Translations under genes and position numbers: made by a program | Shown: positions 11,144-35,289 of the stretch, piece after piece | Position numbering within the stretch: position 1 is the first letter of the stretch | How the letters are laid out: each line of letters begins with the position of its first letter | Source: Candidatus Woesearchaeota archaeon | Lineage (GTDB): Archaea > Nanobdellota > Nanobdellia > SCGC-AAA011-G17 > ARS1403 | Direction: 5' to 3' | Assembly: GCA_016181275.1 (NCBI GenBank) | Contig: JACOZQ010000027.1 | Span: 1 to 37,567, forward strand | Length of the DNA stretch: 37,567 bases | Notes under the pieces: generated by a model | What the model saw: only the letters and a program-made list of their open reading frames with translations | Told to the model about the DNA's origin: nothing | The model's database searches: none

Positions 11144-13708
11144 TTATTTCTCTTTTTTATTCAAGCCGTTTACAACTAATTTTGGAAGTCCAGTGCCGAG
11201 AGGAACAGGCTGATTTAAAATAACGTTTTCAATTACTGAATTCAAATAATCCTCTTCTCCAGTCAAAGCAGCTCCAATCAAATGCCTCATCGGGGTTTCA
11301 AAGCTGGCTCTTGCTAAAACAGATTCTTTCTCTCCTGTTATTCCACTTCTTGTAATTCCTTTTACGCTTCCATTTGCAGTCATCACGTCAGCAATCAGCA
11401 TTATATGCCTTATATTTATATCAAGACCTTGATTTTGTATAACTTTGCTTGCTTCATTTATTATAGCTTGCCGAGTAGCTTCAATTCCAAAAACACTGAG
11501 GATTTCATGAATATCATTTGTTGTCGTCCTGAATGTGTCAACTTCTTTTACTTTTAAAATTTCTTTCAAGTTGCTCCCGGAGGTTAGTATTATGAATTCG
11601 CCTTCTCTTTTTACAGGAAGAACATAACTTACTCCTTTGACTCCTTTTATGAAAACATTTTTTGCTTTCTCCTTCAGCATGTATAGTTCATTCAAGTCAG
11701 TTTCTTTTCCTTTTAATGTAATTCCATCTTTATTATCCCTTATCTGAATTCCTTTTAAAGAATCTTTAAGAACTTTCATCAAGCTGAGCTCTGTCATGCC
11801 GATGTCTTTTAATTTATTTTTATCAATGCTTATTTTTACATTCATGTTTGATATGTCGATAGCAAATTCAGTTGCAATGTCAGCAAGAATATTCTCTTTG
11901 ATTTGGCTGGCAATTTTTCTTACCTTAGCAGCATCTTTTGAAAATTCCTCATTCAAATAAACTTCCATGCTCGGAGTCTTTATTGATTTGCTCGCATCAA
12001 ATATTTCTATTAATCTTGGAAGTCCAGATGTGACCTGCATCTCTGAAACTCCTGCAAAGTGCTTAACATTTAATGTATTATGTGTTATAATGCCGTCAAA
12101 AGTTGTAAAGGTTTCTAATCCAGGAACAGATAAATCATAAACAAATTTATCATTATCTATATATTGAACTTCTTTTATTTCATCCCAAATAATATCCGAA
12201 TTAAACATTCTTCTCATAGTTTTCAATTCTTCAGAAATATCAATTTTCTTTTCTTCAGCTAATAATTCAAACTTTTTAATATATCTATATAATGCAGTTC
12301 TTCCTATCTTTTGTCTTTTAGTGAAATTATTAATATATCTTGTTGGCATTCCAATTCTTTGAGCAGTTGTTTTGAATAAATCTCCAAATCCTGAAACCAT
12401 ATCCGTAAAATCTTGCGAACTCTCATTCCAATAATTTCTTGAAAGTTCGGCCAACTTTTCCAAAGCCATTCTTTTTTTGTCAATATCACTTCCTACAAAT
12501 TGTAAAAATAAAGGAGCATATTTATAAGGAACCAATAGCCAAAATTGTCCTTTCTTATCTTTTACTTTATAAGAAAATATTTTGAATCTGTTTAATAATA
12601 AAGCAATGCCATCTATTAATTCCTTAGAATTGCTGCTTACTCTTATCATTTTTCTACTCACGGTAAAATTAGCATCTCCATCAAAATATCCTCTCAGTAA
12701 TCCAGAAACAAAGCCTTCTTCAGAAGAATAGGCAAATTCTGGAACTTTCTTGTTTCTTGAGCCTGAATTACATATTGAAATTACAAATTTGGAAAGTAAT
12801 GAAGAAGAAATTTTTAAGTCTCTGCTCAATGCAAATCCCCTTGAATTTATTTCCTCTTTACAATCTAATCCTATATCATTGATGAATTCTTTAATATTGT
12901 AAATAAAATTATCATCCATATTGGATATAGAAACTTGACCATTATTGGCATGACCTTCAGATAAGTAAGCACCTACAAAGTGGCCGAATTTCTTATCTAA
13001 AACAATCTTATTTGGAATATTCTTAGCTCTTGTTTTGCATCTAGACAACATTCCATCTTCGCTTTCGTTAACATTATTAATGTAATCATTGATCTTTATA
13101 GATTCAATGCAATTTTCAGGCAAATATTTAATCACAGGAATCCTATCGCCAATTTTTAAATCAGCTCCAATAATTGGAACAATTCTATTATCCTTTCTTA
13201 TAACAAAAGAATGATTGTTTGTTGCAGTTATTTCTCTTCCAGATGCTGTTTTTAATTTCATTAATTTTTTATTATATTTATGTCTGCTGCATTCAATAAT
13301 TCTTTTCCATTCAATTTTTTCTTCTTGATTAATACTGGGTGCATAAAATTCATAATCATTTAATGGAAAAACTTCTGTATCATTAAATCTTAAAGAACCA
13401 TTTTTCTCCATCAATCTATCTACAAATTCTCCAATCTTTAATATTTTTATTCTATCCTTTATCTTAACAATTATTTTTTCATCTTTTTGGATGCTCATCT
13501 GCGTCGCTGGTTCGCCAAAGCTTTCAGCTGTTACAATTCCGATTGCTTCTCCAGGAGAGATAATACTTCCTTCATATTCTCTTTTAACTCTTTCAAGTAT
13601 TTCTTTCAGCTGGACTTTAGTTACATTAATTTTTGAAATCTCTTTTTTTACATCATCCAATAGTTTTTCAGGGATCATTCCATGATATTCTTTGAATATT
13701 TCATCCAT
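11144..13708 (-). CDS. rpoA2: RNA polymerase subunit A'' interrupted by an intein
   Basis: The largest-subunit C-terminal part of archaeal RNAP. The 854-residue precursor is 381 residues of extein plus a 473-residue intein (residues 72-544). The N-extein ends SPGEAIGIVTAESFGEPATQM and the C-extein resumes TLNVKHFAGVSEMQVTSGLPRLIEIFDA, together giving the uninterrupted A'' sequence QMTLNVKHFAGV, the trigger-loop region. C-terminal A'' motifs include GITRSGITGEKESVLARASFETPMRHL. GGAGGGT, encoded within the end of the preceding ORF, is its ribosome binding site, 6 nt before the ATG. Splicing must occur for a functional enzyme. Confidence 0.96.
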   Translation of the reverse strand: MDEIFKEYHGMIPEKLLDDVKKEISKINVTKVQLKEILERVKREYEGSIISPGEAIGIVTAESFGEPATQMSIQKDEKIIVKIKDRIKILKIGEFVDRLMEKNGSLRFNDTEVFPLNDYEFYAPSINQEEKIEWKRIIECSRHKYNKKLMKLKTASGREITATNNHSFVIRKDNRIVPIIGADLKIGDRIPVIKYLPENCIESIKINDYINNVNESEDGMLSRCKTRAKNIPNKIVLDKKFGHFVGAYLSEGHANNGQVSISNMDDNFIYNIKEFINDIGLDCKEEINSRGFALSRDLKISSSLLSKFVISICNSGSRNKKVPEFAYSSEEGFVSGLLRGYFDGDANFTVSRKMIRVSSNSKELIDGIALLLNRFKIFSYKVKDKKGQFWLLVPYKYAPLFLQFVGSDIDKKRMALEKLAELSRNYWNESSQDFTDMVSGFGDLFKTTAQRIGMPTRYINNFTKRQKIGRTALYRYIKKFELLAEEKKIDISEELKTMRRMFNSDIIWDEIKEVQYIDNDKFVYDLSVPGLETFTTFDGIITHNTLNVKHFAGVSEMQVTSGLPRLIEIFDASKSIKTPSMEVYLNEEFSKDAAKVRKIASQIKENILADIATEFAIDISNMNVKISIDKNKLKDIGMTELSLMKVLKDSLKGIQIRDNKDGITLKGKETDLNELYMLKEKAKNVFIKGVKGVSYVLPVKREGEFIILTSGSNLKEILKVKEVDTFRTTTNDIHEILSVFGIEATRQAIINEASKVIQNQGLDINIRHIMLIADVMTANGSVKGITRSGITGEKESVLARASFETPMRHLIGAALTGEEDYLNSVIENVILNQPVPLGTGLPKLVVNGLNKKEK
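12077..13495 (-). mobile_element. Intein with LAGLIDADG homing endonuclease in rpoA2
   Basis: The 473-residue intein starts with Ser72 and ends His-Asn544, with Thr545 as the +1 residue, so Ser/Asn/Thr chemistry. Block A is SIQKDEKIIVKI...IGEFVD; block B has the TxxH motif TNNHSF (163-168); the splicing C-terminus is FVYDLSVPGLETFTTFDGIITHN (blocks F and G). Two LAGLIDADG-type helices lie between: HFVGAYLSEG (243-252) and FVSGLLRGYFDGD (333-345), both with acidic residues, so the endonuclease may be active. A helical segment (FKTTAQRIGMPTRYINNFTKRQKIGRTALYRYIKKF) may bind DNA. Base composition is similar to the host gene. Confidence 0.95.
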
Positions 13709-16808: not shown

Positions 16809-18611
16809 TCAGTATTTGTCCTCCAATATCAATTTTGGATTTATGCACATGCTTTTTAATTCATCAAGCAGCAATTTGAATGCGTAGCTCAGCTCAATTG
16901 CATTTATCTCGACATTGTCGCCGCATCTCGTGCAATACTGCCTGTTTCTAAATGAATCATTAACAGCAAGCAGGCCACAGTTCTCACAGACGTAAATTGT
17001 TGTCTTGTCAGAATCAAATCTCTCTTTTAGTAATAATGAAGCTCCATGAGCTACTAAGCAATCTTTCTCCATCTCTCCCAGCCTTAATCCTCCTCCTTTA
17101 CTTCTTCCTTCAATCGGCTGTCTTGTTAATAGTTGAATTCTTCCAGAAGCTCTTGCATGCAGTTTATTAGCAACCATATGCTTTAATTTTAAATAGTACA
17201 TGTTTCCGATATAAATTCTGACTTTATATCTCTCACCAGTAACTCCATTATACATTGTTTCGGTTCCATCATCTCTAAAACCTAATTCAAGTAATTCTTG
17301 TCTCAAACCTTTTTCAGGCTCGGCATCGAATGTAGTTCCGTCGACAATTCTTCCAGATAAGCTTCCGACTTTTCCAGCAAGAATCTCTATTAAGTGGCTT
17401 ACAGTCATCCTGTTTGGAATTGAATGAGGGCTGTGGATAATATCAGGGCTAATTCCCTTTGATGAAAATGGAAGATCAATGCTTGGGACTGTCAATCCAA
17501 TTACACCTTTCTGTCCGTGTCTTGATGTAAATTTGTCGCCGATTTCAGGTATTCTTTGATCTCTCAATCTTGCCTGCACTAGCTTGTTTCCTTCTTCATT
17601 ATCGGTGAGAATAACCATATCAACTACACCAGCTTCTCCATGTTTTACAATTGTGCTGCTCTCTCTTCTTGTGCTTGCAGAAAAAGAGAATTCTTCCATC
17701 TCTCCTAAAAATCTTGGTGGGCTTGTTTTTCCAATTATAACATCATCTGCTTTCAATTTCTGCCCGGTGTAAACAATGCCATCATTTTCAAGATACCTAT
17801 AATCTTTTTCGCTTTTATAACCTCTAACTTCTTTATTTGGAATTCCGATTTCATCCATTAAACCGCCGGAGTATCTCAATTCCTCAACTGCATACGGCCT
17901 GAAGTAAGTGCTCCTTGCAAGACCTCTCTCAATGCTACTCTTGTTGAATATTATAGCATCTTCCATATTATATCCTTCATAGCACATCTCAGCTATCACG
18001 ACATTAAAGCCACTAGGATGCTTGTCATAATTGGAGATGCCGGCCATGAATGAGCTCACAATCGGCATCTGAGGAGAATGCAATACACTTACATCTGTAT
18101 CCATCCTCAATAAATAATTCGCAAGATACAAGCCAAGAGCATGCTTCTGATTTTTGCTTCCCCCATTTAGTCTTGCAGCTGCATCATAATTTGCATATGG
18201 GACAAGAGAAGTTGTAACTCCTAATATCGTTATAGCTCCTAATTCGAGATGCGTATACTTCTCGGTCAATTCATCTTCATTCAAAGCAATCAAAGAATTC
18301 TCTTCTTCTCCAGCATCAAGATACTCTATTACTCCATCTTTTATTAAGTTATCCCAGGTTATCTCATTATTCAGCAATTTATCGGTGTATTCCTTTGTCA
18401 ATTTGCTTTTCCCATTTTCCACGACGATTAAAGGCCTTCTCGCCCTCCCGTCAGATATGTTTAAAAATAATTCATCAAATTCCTCGTCGTAAAAAATATT
18501 CAGGCTTCTTAAAAATTCTTTTTCTCTTCTTTCTTTTTTCAAGTTAGAAATGAATTCTTTGACGTTGTCTACTTTTCCAGAATAAACTTCGTCTAGAAAA
18601 ATGTCAGTCAT
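16809..18611 (-). CDS. rpoB1: RNA polymerase subunit B'
   Basis: The C-terminal part of the second-largest RNAP subunit, 600 residues, encoded separately from B''. Motifs: GYNMEDAIIFNKSSIERGLARSTYF, DKFTSRHGQKGVIGLTVP, SPHSIPNRMTVSHLIEILAGK, MYYLKLKHMVANKLHARASGRIQLLTRQPIEGRSKGGGLRLGEMEKDCLVAHGASLLLKERF, and the C-terminal zinc ribbon CENCGLLAV...YCTRCGD. The start overlaps the rpoB2 stop by 4 nt, and AGGAGG lies 6 nt before the ATG. B is split in only some archaea, including methanogens and haloarchaea. Confidence 0.98.
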   Translation of the reverse strand: MTDIFLDEVYSGKVDNVKEFISNLKKERREKEFLRSLNIFYDEEFDELFLNISDGRARRPLIVVENGKSKLTKEYTDKLLNNEITWDNLIKDGVIEYLDAGEEENSLIALNEDELTEKYTHLELGAITILGVTTSLVPYANYDAAARLNGGSKNQKHALGLYLANYLLRMDTDVSVLHSPQMPIVSSFMAGISNYDKHPSGFNVVIAEMCYEGYNMEDAIIFNKSSIERGLARSTYFRPYAVEELRYSGGLMDEIGIPNKEVRGYKSEKDYRYLENDGIVYTGQKLKADDVIIGKTSPPRFLGEMEEFSFSASTRRESSTIVKHGEAGVVDMVILTDNEEGNKLVQARLRDQRIPEIGDKFTSRHGQKGVIGLTVPSIDLPFSSKGISPDIIHSPHSIPNRMTVSHLIEILAGKVGSLSGRIVDGTTFDAEPEKGLRQELLELGFRDDGTETMYNGVTGERYKVRIYIGNMYYLKLKHMVANKLHARASGRIQLLTRQPIEGRSKGGGLRLGEMEKDCLVAHGASLLLKERFDSDKTTIYVCENCGLLAVNDSFRNRQYCTRCGDNVEINAIELSYAFKLLLDELKSMCINPKLILEDKY

Positions 18612-20134
18612 CTTTTTCCTCCTGAATTTTTAGAATTCGAGCTTATTCCATTTTTTTGGATTCCCAATTTATCAAGTACTTCTATTACTTTTTCTTTTTC
18701 AACATCATCATGAGAAACAGTGGACAGCATTGCAAGGTTTTTTCTCAAGCCAATCGAGGTTCCTTCAGGAGTTTCAATAGGGCATAATTTACCCCAATGA
18801 GTTCCGTGCAAAGCCCTTGCTTCGAAATTTTCTTGAGTGCTGCTCAGCAAGCTGACGACTCTTGAGAGATGGCTCATAGCTCCAAGATAATTTGTCCTGT
18901 CAATATTCTGGCTGACTCCCTGCCTTCCACCAGGCCATCCTCCAGTTGCCATCGCGCTAGTAATCCTGCTAGTTAACAATTTATCTCTTATGATTATTTT
19001 TATGCTGTTGAACTTTCCTCTTTTTACAAGCCTCTGGAAATTGTACAGCATGTCATTAACTAAAACCCGCATATTAACTCTTAATAAATCTGCAAGCAAA
19101 TCTCCTGGCAGTTTTATTCTTTTATTCGAATAATGATCTTTATCAGTCAAACTTTTTCCATCTTTTGCAACCATTAAAAATCTCTTTATCATCTTGCATA
19201 AATTATATGCCTTGTCAATTCTATTTTCAGGCTTGTTTCCTAGATGAGGCAGCAAATATCTGTCTAAAAATTCTCTTGCTCTTTCAATTTTTATTTCTCT
19301 GCTCTGGGTTATACCAATTTGTTTTCCCAAGAAATCCAATGCATCTTCCTCTGTTTTCCATTCAATTCCCTTGTATAAATTTATAAAAAGATCTTCATAA
19401 TCCTTTTCAGAATTTATCATATTAGTTATTTCTTGATCGTTCGCCATGCCAAGTGCTTTTATTACAGCAATTATTGGGACCCTCTTGAATCTTGTAAATG
19501 ATAAGTATAAAGTCCCATCTTTCATCTGCTCAACCAAGTGGGGAATTCTTAAAGCGCCTGATTCAGAAAAAACCCTTAATGTATACCTGCTTGGTCCGAT
19601 GTTGGCTTTATCAACAAACATCTTGTTGCTCGCTAAATCCTCCACCATAATCAAAACCCTTTCATTCCCATTCAAAATAAAATAGCCGCCGCAGTCATCA
19701 GGATCTTCTCCAACTTCAATTAATTCATCTCTTTTCAAACCATTTAGATTACAGTGCTTGCTCCTTACCATTATAGGAATCTTTCCAATTTGGGTTGTGA
19801 AATTTTCTATCTGCAAACCGTCGACATAGGCGCTAACTTCTAAAAACAATGGAGCTGCATAAGTCAAGCTTCTTAATCTGGCTTCCATTGGAAAAACATT
19901 TCTCTTGCTTCCATCAGCTTCTATTAGCTGAGGCTCGCCAACCCATATCTTATTCAGCTTTATTAAGAAGTCCTCGACGTTTTCAGGAGTTATAGTGGGA
20001 CGAATTTCTCCAACTTCCTCAATTATCTTAATTAATTCTTTATCAATGAAGTTGTCAAATGATTTTATGTTTGCCTCTATGAAGCTCCTGTTCTCAAAAT
20101 ATTTTGCAATTAATTTTTTATAATTCTCAACCAA
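18608..20134 (-). CDS. rpoB2: RNA polymerase subunit B''
   Basis: The N-terminal part of the second-largest RNAP subunit, 508 residues. It contains GYFILNGNERVLIMVEDLASN, DKDHYSNKRIKLPGDLLADLLR, the fork region GGWPGGRQGVSQNIDRTNYLGAMSHLSRV and ends just after HGTHWGKLCPIETPEGTSIGLRKNLAML, the customary B''/B' break. The last 20 residues (KNGISSNSKNSGGKR) are low-complexity. It starts 1 nt after rpoH. The split with B' is a true gene boundary: an overlapping ATG with its own SD, not a frameshift. Confidence 0.98.
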   Translation of the reverse strand: MVENYKKLIAKYFENRSFIEANIKSFDNFIDKELIKIIEEVGEIRPTITPENVEDFLIKLNKIWVGEPQLIEADGSKRNVFPMEARLRSLTYAAPLFLEVSAYVDGLQIENFTTQIGKIPIMVRSKHCNLNGLKRDELIEVGEDPDDCGGYFILNGNERVLIMVEDLASNKMFVDKANIGPSRYTLRVFSESGALRIPHLVEQMKDGTLYLSFTRFKRVPIIAVIKALGMANDQEITNMINSEKDYEDLFINLYKGIEWKTEEDALDFLGKQIGITQSREIKIERAREFLDRYLLPHLGNKPENRIDKAYNLCKMIKRFLMVAKDGKSLTDKDHYSNKRIKLPGDLLADLLRVNMRVLVNDMLYNFQRLVKRGKFNSIKIIIRDKLLTSRITSAMATGGWPGGRQGVSQNIDRTNYLGAMSHLSRVVSLLSSTQENFEARALHGTHWGKLCPIETPEGTSIGLRKNLAMLSTVSHDDVEKEKVIEVLDKLGIQKNGISSNSKNSGGKR

Positions 20135-20666: not shown

Positions 20667-20773
20667 TGGCGGGCCCGACGCGATTTGAACGCGCGACCCA
20701 TAGCTTTCTTCTCCTCATCAAAAAGAAAAGTTTGCTAAAAGGCTATTGCTCTACCAAGCTGAGCTACGGGCCC
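20667..20773 (-). tRNA. tRNA-Lys(UUU) with a 30-nt intron
   Basis: All cloverleaf parts are visible on the minus strand: acceptor GGGCCCG/CGGGCCC, D-arm GCTC-AGCTTGGTA-GAGC, anticodon stem ATAGC/GCTAT, T-arm GCGCG-TTCAAAT-CGCGT, and G73 followed by an encoded CCA. The anticodon loop is CTTTTA+A with anticodon TTT. A 30-nt intron (20706-20735) sits after position 37. CTTT pairs with GAAG near the intron 3' end, flanked by 3-nt bulges TA|G and AA|A, the bulge-helix-bulge cut by archaeal splicing endonuclease. Confidence 0.95.
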
Positions 20774-22994: not shown

Positions 22995-23089
22995 CGCCGA
23001 CGACAGGATTTGAACCTGCATGTCTCACGACAAAGGTTTTCTTGTTTTCAATTCGAGACCTTCAAGCGACCAGATTGCTCAACGTCGGC
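22995..23089 (-). tRNA. tRNA-Ser(CGA) with a 13-nt intron
   Basis: Minus-strand cloverleaf: acceptor GCCGACG/CGTCGGC, D-arm GAGC/GCTT, anticodon stem AAGGT/ACCTT, anticodon loop CTCGAA+A with anticodon CGA, long variable arm TGTC-GTGA-GACA (class II, as expected for Ser), T-arm GCAGG-TTCAAAT-CCTGT, and discriminator G73. CCA is not encoded. A 13-nt intron, TTGAAAACAAGAA (23039-23051), follows position 37. The bulge-helix-bulge is imperfect: CTCG faces CAAG with one C-A mismatch. Confidence 0.92.
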
Positions 23090-31533: not shown

Positions 31534-31641
31534 CGCTCCCTCCGAGATTCGAACTCGGGTCCCGGCCTTTCTTTTTTTTCAAGCTTTTCTAAAGCTTGCC
31601 TCGAAAGGGCCGGATCGTTGACCGGGCTAGACCAAGGGAGC
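31534..31641 (-). tRNA. tRNA-Glu(UUC) with a 33-nt intron
   Basis: Minus-strand cloverleaf: acceptor GCTCCCT/AGGGAGC, anticodon stem CGGCC/GGCCG, loop CTTTCG+A with anticodon TTC, T-arm CCGAG-TTCGAAT-CTCGG, discriminator G73, CCA not encoded. The intron (31569-31601) follows position 37 and forms its own hairpin, CAAGCTTT-AGA-AAAGCTTG. Exon CTTT pairs with intron AAAG, flanked by 3-nt bulges CG|A and AA|A, a good bulge-helix-bulge. Its 5' end is 41 nt from tRNA-Ile, so both may be cotranscribed. Confidence 0.95.
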
Positions 31642-31681: not shown

Positions 31682-31783
31682 TGGGCTCGAGCGGATTTGA
31701 ACCGCCGACCACCAGCTCTCTTAGAGTTGTAGTCTGGACAGTCATATAAGACTGGTGCTCTAACCAGACTGAGCTACGAGCCC
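31682..31783 (-). tRNA. tRNA-Ile(UAU) with a 27-nt intron
   Basis: Minus-strand cloverleaf: acceptor GGGCTCG/CGAGCCC, D-arm GCTC-AGTCTGGTTA-GAGC, anticodon stem CCAGT/GCTGG, T-arm GGCGG-TTCAAAT-CCGCT, discriminator A73, CCA not encoded. The loop is CTTATA+A, giving anticodon TAT. The intron (31718-31744) follows position 37; exon CTTA pairs perfectly with intron TAAG, flanked by 3-nt bulges TA|T and AG|A, which fixes the splice sites and the anticodon. UAU-anticodon tRNA-Ile is rare in archaea, which normally use CAU with agmatidine. Confidence 0.9.
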
Positions 31784-31824
31784 ATAACAAGTCTTAGAAA
31801 TAATATTCTTTTAAATGTTTTGGA

Positions 31825-34314: not shown

Positions 34315-35289
34315 ATGAAAAATAGATCTAGAATAAATTGCATTGGAATTGAATCAACTGCGCATACATTTTCATGCTCTGTTGTAAATGATAAAGGAGA
34401 AATTTTAAGCGAAGAAAGAGAGATGTATAAATCTCCTGACATGGGAATAATTCCTAATAAATGCGCCGAATTTCTTAAAAACGTAAAAGACAAATTAATT
34501 AAAAAAGTGATCACAGAATCGGGAGTTAAAAAGTTTGAGCTGATTGCTTTTTCACAAGGTCCTGGAATGCCATTATCTTTATGGGTTGGAGCTAATGCTG
34601 CTAAAGAACAAGCAATAATATTTAATTCACCATTAATTGGTGTTTCACACCTGATTGCACATTTAGAAATTGGAAAATTAATGTGCAAAGCTAAAGACCC
34701 TGTTTATATTTTAGCTACTGGAGCTAACACGCAGATAATTGCTTTTGAAGGAGAAAAATATAGAATCTTTGGAGAATGTCTAACAATCGGAATTGGAAAT
34801 GCTCTTGACAAATTCGGAAGGGAGATTGGACTCGGATTTCCAGCCGGACCTAAAATTGAAGAGTTTGCTAAAAAAGGAAAATACATTGAGCTGCCTTATG
34901 TTGTGAAGGGAATGGATGTCGAATTCTCAGGGATAATAACAAAGGCAATCCGTCTTTATAAAAAAGGAGCTAAAAAAGAAGATTTATGTTTTTCTCTGCA
35001 GGAAACAATGTTTTCAATGCTGACTGAAGTTGCTGAAAGAGCTCTTGCTCATACTGATAAAAATGAGCTGCTGCTGATTGGTGGCGTTGCTGCAAATAAA
35101 AGACTAATTGAAATGCTTGAAACAATGTGCAAAGAAAGAAATGCTAAATTTGAAGTTGTTCCATTTAAATGGAGCGGCGATAATGCTGCAATGATTGCAT
35201 GGACTGGAATTTTAAATTACAAGAAAAATAAAAAAAGCTTGGAGCTAAAAAAAATTGAGATAAATCCTAAGTGGAGGATTGACGCCTGA
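34315..35289 (+). CDS. kae1: Kae1, tRNA N6-adenosine threonylcarbamoyltransferase
   Basis: Kae1 is the catalytic subunit of KEOPS, which transfers threonylcarbamoyl to A37 of ANN-decoding tRNAs (t6A). The 324-residue ASKHA-fold protein has GIESTAHTFSCSVV at the start, the metal-binding SHLIAHLEIG with His112 and His116, LATGANTQII, DKFGREIGLGFPAGPKIEEFA, and the C-terminal LLIGGVAANKRL and KWSGDNAAMIAWTG. The usual GPGLGP...LRVG motif reads GPGMPLSLWVG, somewhat altered. Not fused to Bud32, which is absent from the window. TATA-like TTTTATAAA about 25 nt upstream indicates a leaderless transcript. Confidence 0.96.
   Translation: MKNRSRINCIGIESTAHTFSCSVVNDKGEILSEEREMYKSPDMGIIPNKCAEFLKNVKDKLIKKVITESGVKKFELIAFSQGPGMPLSLWVGANAAKEQAIIFNSPLIGVSHLIAHLEIGKLMCKAKDPVYILATGANTQIIAFEGEKYRIFGECLTIGIGNALDKFGREIGLGFPAGPKIEEFAKKGKYIELPYVVKGMDVEFSGIITKAIRLYKKGAKKEDLCFSLQETMFSMLTEVAERALAHTDKNELLLIGGVAANKRLIEMLETMCKERNAKFEVVPFKWSGDNAAMIAWTGILNYKKNKKSLELKKIEINPKWRIDA

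Follow-up and report, generated by a model that had tools for sequence, protein, structure and literature searches.

The codons AUA and AUG are the hardest pair for a cell to separate, and the textbook archaeal answer is agmatidine, with a TiaS-modified tRNA-Ile2(CAU) reading AUA as isoleucine. In eukaryotes, AUA is read by a tRNA-Ile(UAU) with pseudouridines in its anticodon, and anticodon-loop introns also occur. Wobble uridines (U34) can be modified by Elp3. UAU has been reviewed as generally unused in prokaryotes, on the argument that a cm5U-type U34 in this anticodon would read AUG as isoleucine (PMC8879553), while a 2026 review states that UAU anticodons encoded by archaea are converted to agm2C (PMC13206607). 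Of 167 archaeal genomes, two, those of Nanoarchaeum and Korarchaeum, carried tRNA-Ile(UAU), which was interpreted as a species-specific gain in each (PMC6000648), and a survey of 217 genomes likewise named only these two (PMC8450103). In both N. equitans and K. cryptofilum, tRNA-Ile(UAU) is present and tRNA-Ile2(CAU) is absent (PMC6000648, PMC8450103). In the bacterium Mycoplasma mobile, an unmodified U34 goes together with changes in IleRS, and discrimination by the ribosome has been reported (PMC4014445).

An intron-bearing tRNA-Ile(UAU) gene

We analyzed a window of 37,567 nucleotides, i.e., the whole stretch of DNA presented here, from a Candidatus Woesearchaeota draft genome (942,196 bases or 0.94 Mb, 50 contigs, 92.8% complete). 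Its minus strand carries a full-length match to the Rfam tRNA family (RF00005, cmscan; E 9e-11) whose anticodon loop holds a 28-nt insert. We resolved this match into the following features, listed with a candidate modification gene at higher window coordinates:

31682–31783, minus strand: tRNA-Ile(UAU) gene, intron-bearing, with A73 and no encoded CCA (Rfam tRNA, 60.2 bits; lineage tRNA model, 82.1 bits)
31745–31783, minus strand: exon 1, positions 1–37 (cmscan alignment and sequence)
31746–31748, minus strand: anticodon U34-A35-U36 (cmscan alignment, sequence, comparison with relatives)
31718–31744, minus strand: predicted intron of 27 nt at the canonical position 37/38 (length; anticodon-stem pairing CCAGU/GCUGG; four of four bulge-helix-bulge core pairs)
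31747–31750, minus strand: predicted 5′ strand of the bulge-helix-bulge (BHB) core helix, C32–A35 (pairs with 31720–31723)
31720–31723, minus strand: predicted 3′ strand of the BHB core helix, UAAG, intron positions −6 to −3 (pairs with C32–A35)
31682–31717, minus strand: exon 2, positions 38–73 (cmscan alignment)
31810–31815, minus strand: TATA-like TTTAAA, ~27 nt upstream of the tRNA (by eye, consensus only)
34315–35289, plus strand: Kae1/TsaD-type gene, t6A37 pathway (matches archaeal O-sialoglycoprotein endopeptidase/tRNA threonylcarbamoyladenosine chains, E 1e-96)

The spliced tRNA, GGGCUCGUAGCUCAGUCUGGUUAGAGCACCAGUCUUAUAAGCUGGUGGUCGGCGGUUCAAAUCCGCUCGAGCCCA, has seven acceptor pairs, a D arm, an anticodon stem (CCAGU/GCUGG), a T arm with UUCAAAU, and A73. 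Its anticodon loop joins C32 U33 U34 A35 U36 A37 to A38 as CUUAUAA, giving the anticodon UAU. Together with A73 and the A37/A38 loop, a GGG-type acceptor marks the body as that of an isoleucine tRNA, which would be charged by IleRS; we know of no archaeal determinant from which charging of a UAU tRNA by IleRS could be read from sequence. ARAGORN with bacterial settings returned no tRNA across the window, as expected for a gene bearing an intron.

Other genes of the window show structures of their own. Three further tRNA genes on the minus strand bear introns and were read as Glu(UUC) at 31537–31641, Lys(UUU) at 20670–20773 and Ser(CGA) at 22995–23089, the first of which falls below the Rfam gathering threshold and was found by the lineage model. 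The ORF for RNA polymerase subunit A″ (11144–13708, minus strand) seems to be interrupted, between GEPATQMSI and TLNVKHFAGV, by an intein-like insert whose sequence is endonuclease-like, and subunit B is encoded by two minus-strand ORFs, 16809–18611 and 18608–20134, overlapping by 4 nt.

Splicing and the anticodon call

In the window gene, C32-U33-U34-A35 can form all four core pairs with the UAAG at intron positions −6 to −3, and we found the canonical 37/38 BHB motif (hBHBh′, 4-bp core, 3-nt bulges). Computed energies were −29.5 kcal/mol for the BHB structure, −35.6 kcal/mol for the spliced tRNA, and −42.2 kcal/mol for the unconstrained minimum free energy fold of the precursor. Since the last of these is the more stable and lacks the BHB, support for the motif comes from comparison and not from energy. 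Related loci yielded 105 distinct archaeal UAU genes. An intron sits at 37/38 in 84 of them, and all but one of these (83) keep at least three of the four core pairs; the other 21 are intronless and have the same anticodon. The loop is CUUAUAA in 98 genes and CUUAUAC in the other 7, with A73 in all 105. This conservation suggests splicing at the BHB. The anticodon itself is independent of the splice call, because positions 34–36 lie in exon 1 and because intronless orthologues share it. The initial annotation had held that the BHB geometry fixes the loop as CTTATAA and hence the anticodon as UAU: loop and anticodon stand, whereas their dependence on the splice sites does not.

Distribution of the UAU tRNA and absence of TiaS

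We next evaluated how widely this tRNA occurs. A strict pattern for a first exon with loop CUUAUA, which gives a lower bound as it misses other D-arm variants and D-arm introns, matched 203 of 371 genomes of the phylum, with one copy per genome among the matches listed, and had no match in the reversed control. It was used instead of a 3-mismatch pattern that proved unspecific, picking up Lys, Arg, and Ile(GAU) tRNAs as well (317/371 genomes), while a degenerate version in which AGCTCAG was fixed had been too narrow (6/103 genomes). The 168 of 371 genomes unmatched by the strict pattern may present a mixed picture. Genomes of named species yielded at least 110 UAU stretches and, among the listed matches, most came from Woesearchaeota, Pacearchaeota, Nanoarchaeota, Micrarchaeota, and Diapherotrites, with some from Aenigmatarchaeota and a few from candidate-phylum bacteria.

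The bacterial UAU tRNA-Ile-like genes among the listed matches (L101, L184, L108, L152, L178, L193, L195, L153, and L188) include ones from WWE3, Parcubacteria, Saccharibacteria, a WPS-2 bin, and a Prochlorococcus single-cell genome, and are intronless where parsed.

Profile searches for TiaS returned no match. The TiaS_FLD domain (PF08489) was found in 0 of 117 relatives, including the genome studied here, 0 of 371 genomes of the phylum (243 of them ≥90% complete), and 0 of 46 named genomes bearing the UAU tRNA; the independent TiaS_TCKD domain (PF22641) was found in 0 of 146 genomes drawn from the phylum to which a Micrarchaeota genome belongs. All four archaeal control genomes were positive every time. 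Phylum-wide searches covered Nanobdellota and the phylum of that Micrarchaeota genome. The absence of TiaS is thus clade-wide rather than a local loss. A UAU tRNA without TiaS is very likely the ordinary state of Nanobdellota (the former Nanoarchaeota plus Woese- and Pacearchaeota) and of Micrarchaeota, and UAU decoding probably became fixed at an early stage of DPANN evolution. The initial annotation, which noted that UAU versions are reported in a few archaea such as Nanoarchaeum (PMC6000648, PMC8450103), had also suggested that this genome may have dropped the agmatidine pathway. The pathway does appear to be missing, but its absence, whether by loss or because it was never there, is not specific to this genome, given TiaS in 0/371 and 0/146 genomes and a shared UAU tRNA.

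Other tRNAs and the meaning of AUA

The lineage-specific tRNA model, whose seed included a single generic Met-type tRNA and whose matches serve as an inventory only, gave 32 matches in this genome. A tRNA-Ile(GAU) lies at contig C31, 7925–7999, and the only CAU tRNA recovered (contig C16, 941–1045, minus strand), with acceptor GCCGCUG/CAGCGGC, A73, and a D-arm intron, is of elongator-Met type. No second CAU tRNA was present among the matches read, and no Ile-type CAU tRNA among the 32 in this 93% complete draft, where the initiator Met tRNA was likewise not seen and the inventory is therefore incomplete. Thus, the search that the initial annotation had proposed, for tiaS and a CAU-anticodon tRNA-Ile2, found neither within those bounds. 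In relatives, the CAU matches inspected had Met-type GCC or GTC acceptor ends.

The elongator-Met-type tRNA here has G37 instead of the usual A, in the loop CUCAUGA, and one relative (L071) also has CUCAUG. Separately, tRNA-Ile(UAU) and tRNA-Ile(GAU) of this genome are identical at 46 of 75 positions, while in several lineages (G274, G290, and the similar loci L081 and L086) their 5′ halves are nearly identical, which suggests duplication or gene conversion.

AUA accounts for 379 of 994 isoleucine codons (38%) among the 10,738 codons counted in the window. The ORF for the C-terminal part of RpoB has 15 AUA codons; aligned by eye with the best-matching archaeal RpoB, nine of them coincide with I, two with L, one with V, three with other residues, and none with M, whereas conserved Met positions are encoded by AUG. 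The TsaD alignment, also read by eye, agrees, with AUA mostly at I, L, or V and not M. From this placement, AUA is, as judged by alignment, isoleucine in this genome.

Alternative explanations

Taken together, the best explanation is that the locus encodes an AUA-decoding tRNA-Ile, without TiaS and without agmatidine, and that this is normal for the phylum, to which we assign a probability of about 0.9. Among the alternatives, the one we would rank highest, and still consider improbable, is that the UAU tRNA is redundant, with a CAU Ile2 tRNA still being modified, either by a TiaS that has diverged strongly or by a TilS of bacterial type. The genome is a draft with an incomplete tRNA inventory, the searches for an enzyme modifying C34 covered TiaS, and the title of a paper cited in PMC9976931 gives Lactobacillus plantarum both CAU and UAU tRNA-Ile; against this stand two independent TiaS domains without a match while archaeal controls were positive, and the Met-type acceptor ends of the CAU matches inspected in relatives.

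A swap of C34 for U34 with discard of TiaS in this genome or genus alone would fit a reduced genome of 0.94 Mb and has parallels in the isolated TilS losses of Mycoplasma mobile and hemoplasmas (PMC4014445). However, with TiaS in none of the 371 genomes of the phylum and none of the 146 from the phylum that includes a Micrarchaeota genome, and the UAU tRNA in at least 203 of the former, such a local loss is very unlikely; it could be upheld only if DPANN proteins systematically escaped both TiaS profiles, and is otherwise already refuted. Least credible of all, to the point of being negligible, is a non-canonical splice site that would create another loop and an anticodon other than UAU: while the BHB is missing from the unconstrained precursor fold, the anticodon sits within exon 1, the 21 intronless orthologues have CUUAUAA or CUUAUAC, and the BHB core is kept in 83 of the 84 intron-bearing ones.

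Proposed decoding of AUA without agmatidine

Under the preferred reading, i.e., an AUA-decoding tRNA-Ile without agmatidine, the transcript would carry the 27-nt intron and be spliced at the BHB, after which a plain U34:A3 Watson–Crick pair would read AUA. The Kae1/TsaD-type product should modify A37 of tRNA-Ile(UAU), and the resulting t6A37 would support AUA reading. tRNA-Ile(GAU) would serve AUU and AUC, and the CAU tRNA would serve AUG. Discrimination against AUG would then come from U34 modification or its lack, from the ribosome, and from IleRS, and not from agm2C34.

The enzyme that acts on wobble U34, Elp3, sharpens this problem, as an Elp3-modified U34 might favor reading of AUG. Elp3 is full length in this genome (contig C48, 10276–11865, 593.6 bits, with the radical-SAM motif CSHGTCTFC) and, of the 117 relatives searched, 101 have a match above the cut-off; a few had no Elp3 match, including G107, G105, G088, G076, and G021. 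G107, a single contig with the UAU tRNA and no Elp3 match, offers a natural contrast for U34 chemistry. In several archaeal tRNAs, cnm5U34 has been found (PMC7668247). Either tRNA-Ile(UAU) is no substrate of Elp3, or its U34, once modified, pairs with A and nothing else, or the ribosome discriminates. Of these possibilities, we tentatively favor, with low confidence, a U34 that is unmodified or differently modified, combined with adaptation of IleRS or the ribosome.

Compared with the canonical system of agmatidine, tRNA-Ile2(CAU), and TiaS, the same job is done here with a gene-encoded U34, without TiaS, and with no Ile-type CAU tRNA found. The closest counterpart is the “Ile3” of N. equitans and K. 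cryptofilum, likewise an archaeal tRNA with a UAU anticodon. In those two species tRNA-Ile2(CAU) is absent, and none was found among the 32 tRNA matches of the 93% complete draft studied here; the Korarchaeum gene is also intron-bearing (PMC6000648, PMC8450103). Unlike those isolated gains, the pattern here extends over the phylum, Micrarchaeota, and the named Diapherotrites and Aenigmatarchaeota, and Elp3 is kept in most genomes of the order. M. mobile and hemoplasmas resemble it in having U34 in place of a modified C34 with the modifying enzyme gone, but they are bacterial, form a small clade, and lost lysidine (TilS) rather than agmatidine; in M. mobile, U34 was shown to be unmodified and IleRS and the ribosome adapted (PMC4014445). 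The eukaryotic tRNA-Ile(UAU) is also UAU-encoded and AUA-reading. In the archaeal genes, the intronless orthologues show the intron to be dispensable, and nothing found here points to a pseudouridine at position 34. A strict requirement of the intron for U34 modification, as in eukaryotes, was considered and rejected, 21 of the 105 archaeal orthologues being intronless.

The absence of TiaS here contradicts the statement that archaeal UAU is converted to agm2C (PMC13206607). A search of openly accessible literature found no paper joining agmatidine with DPANN; the type of system is known and, within that scope, the breadth of the pattern is apparently new.

We lean, with some reserve, towards a broader reading, in which DPANN as a whole never had agmatidine or lost it at the root, and AUA is served by a gene-encoded UAU anticodon while most members keep Elp3, the tRNA either escaping Elp3 or having a modified U34 that reads A but not G. 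This would be a second archaeal solution to the separation of isoleucine from methionine, a genuinely archaeal one beside agmatidine, against reviews claiming suppression of UAU or its conversion to agm2C. What had been two exceptions is now seen as the norm across much of DPANN: whole phyla encode UAU without TiaS, AUA makes up more than a third of isoleucine codons in the window, and Elp3 is kept in this order. The clade-wide pattern with Elp3 retained is the part that deserves follow-up. How a U34 tRNA avoids AUG is a sharp question that cultivated nanoarchaea and micrarchaea make open to direct testing. The absence of TiaS may also serve as a shared character when asking whether DPANN is one lineage.
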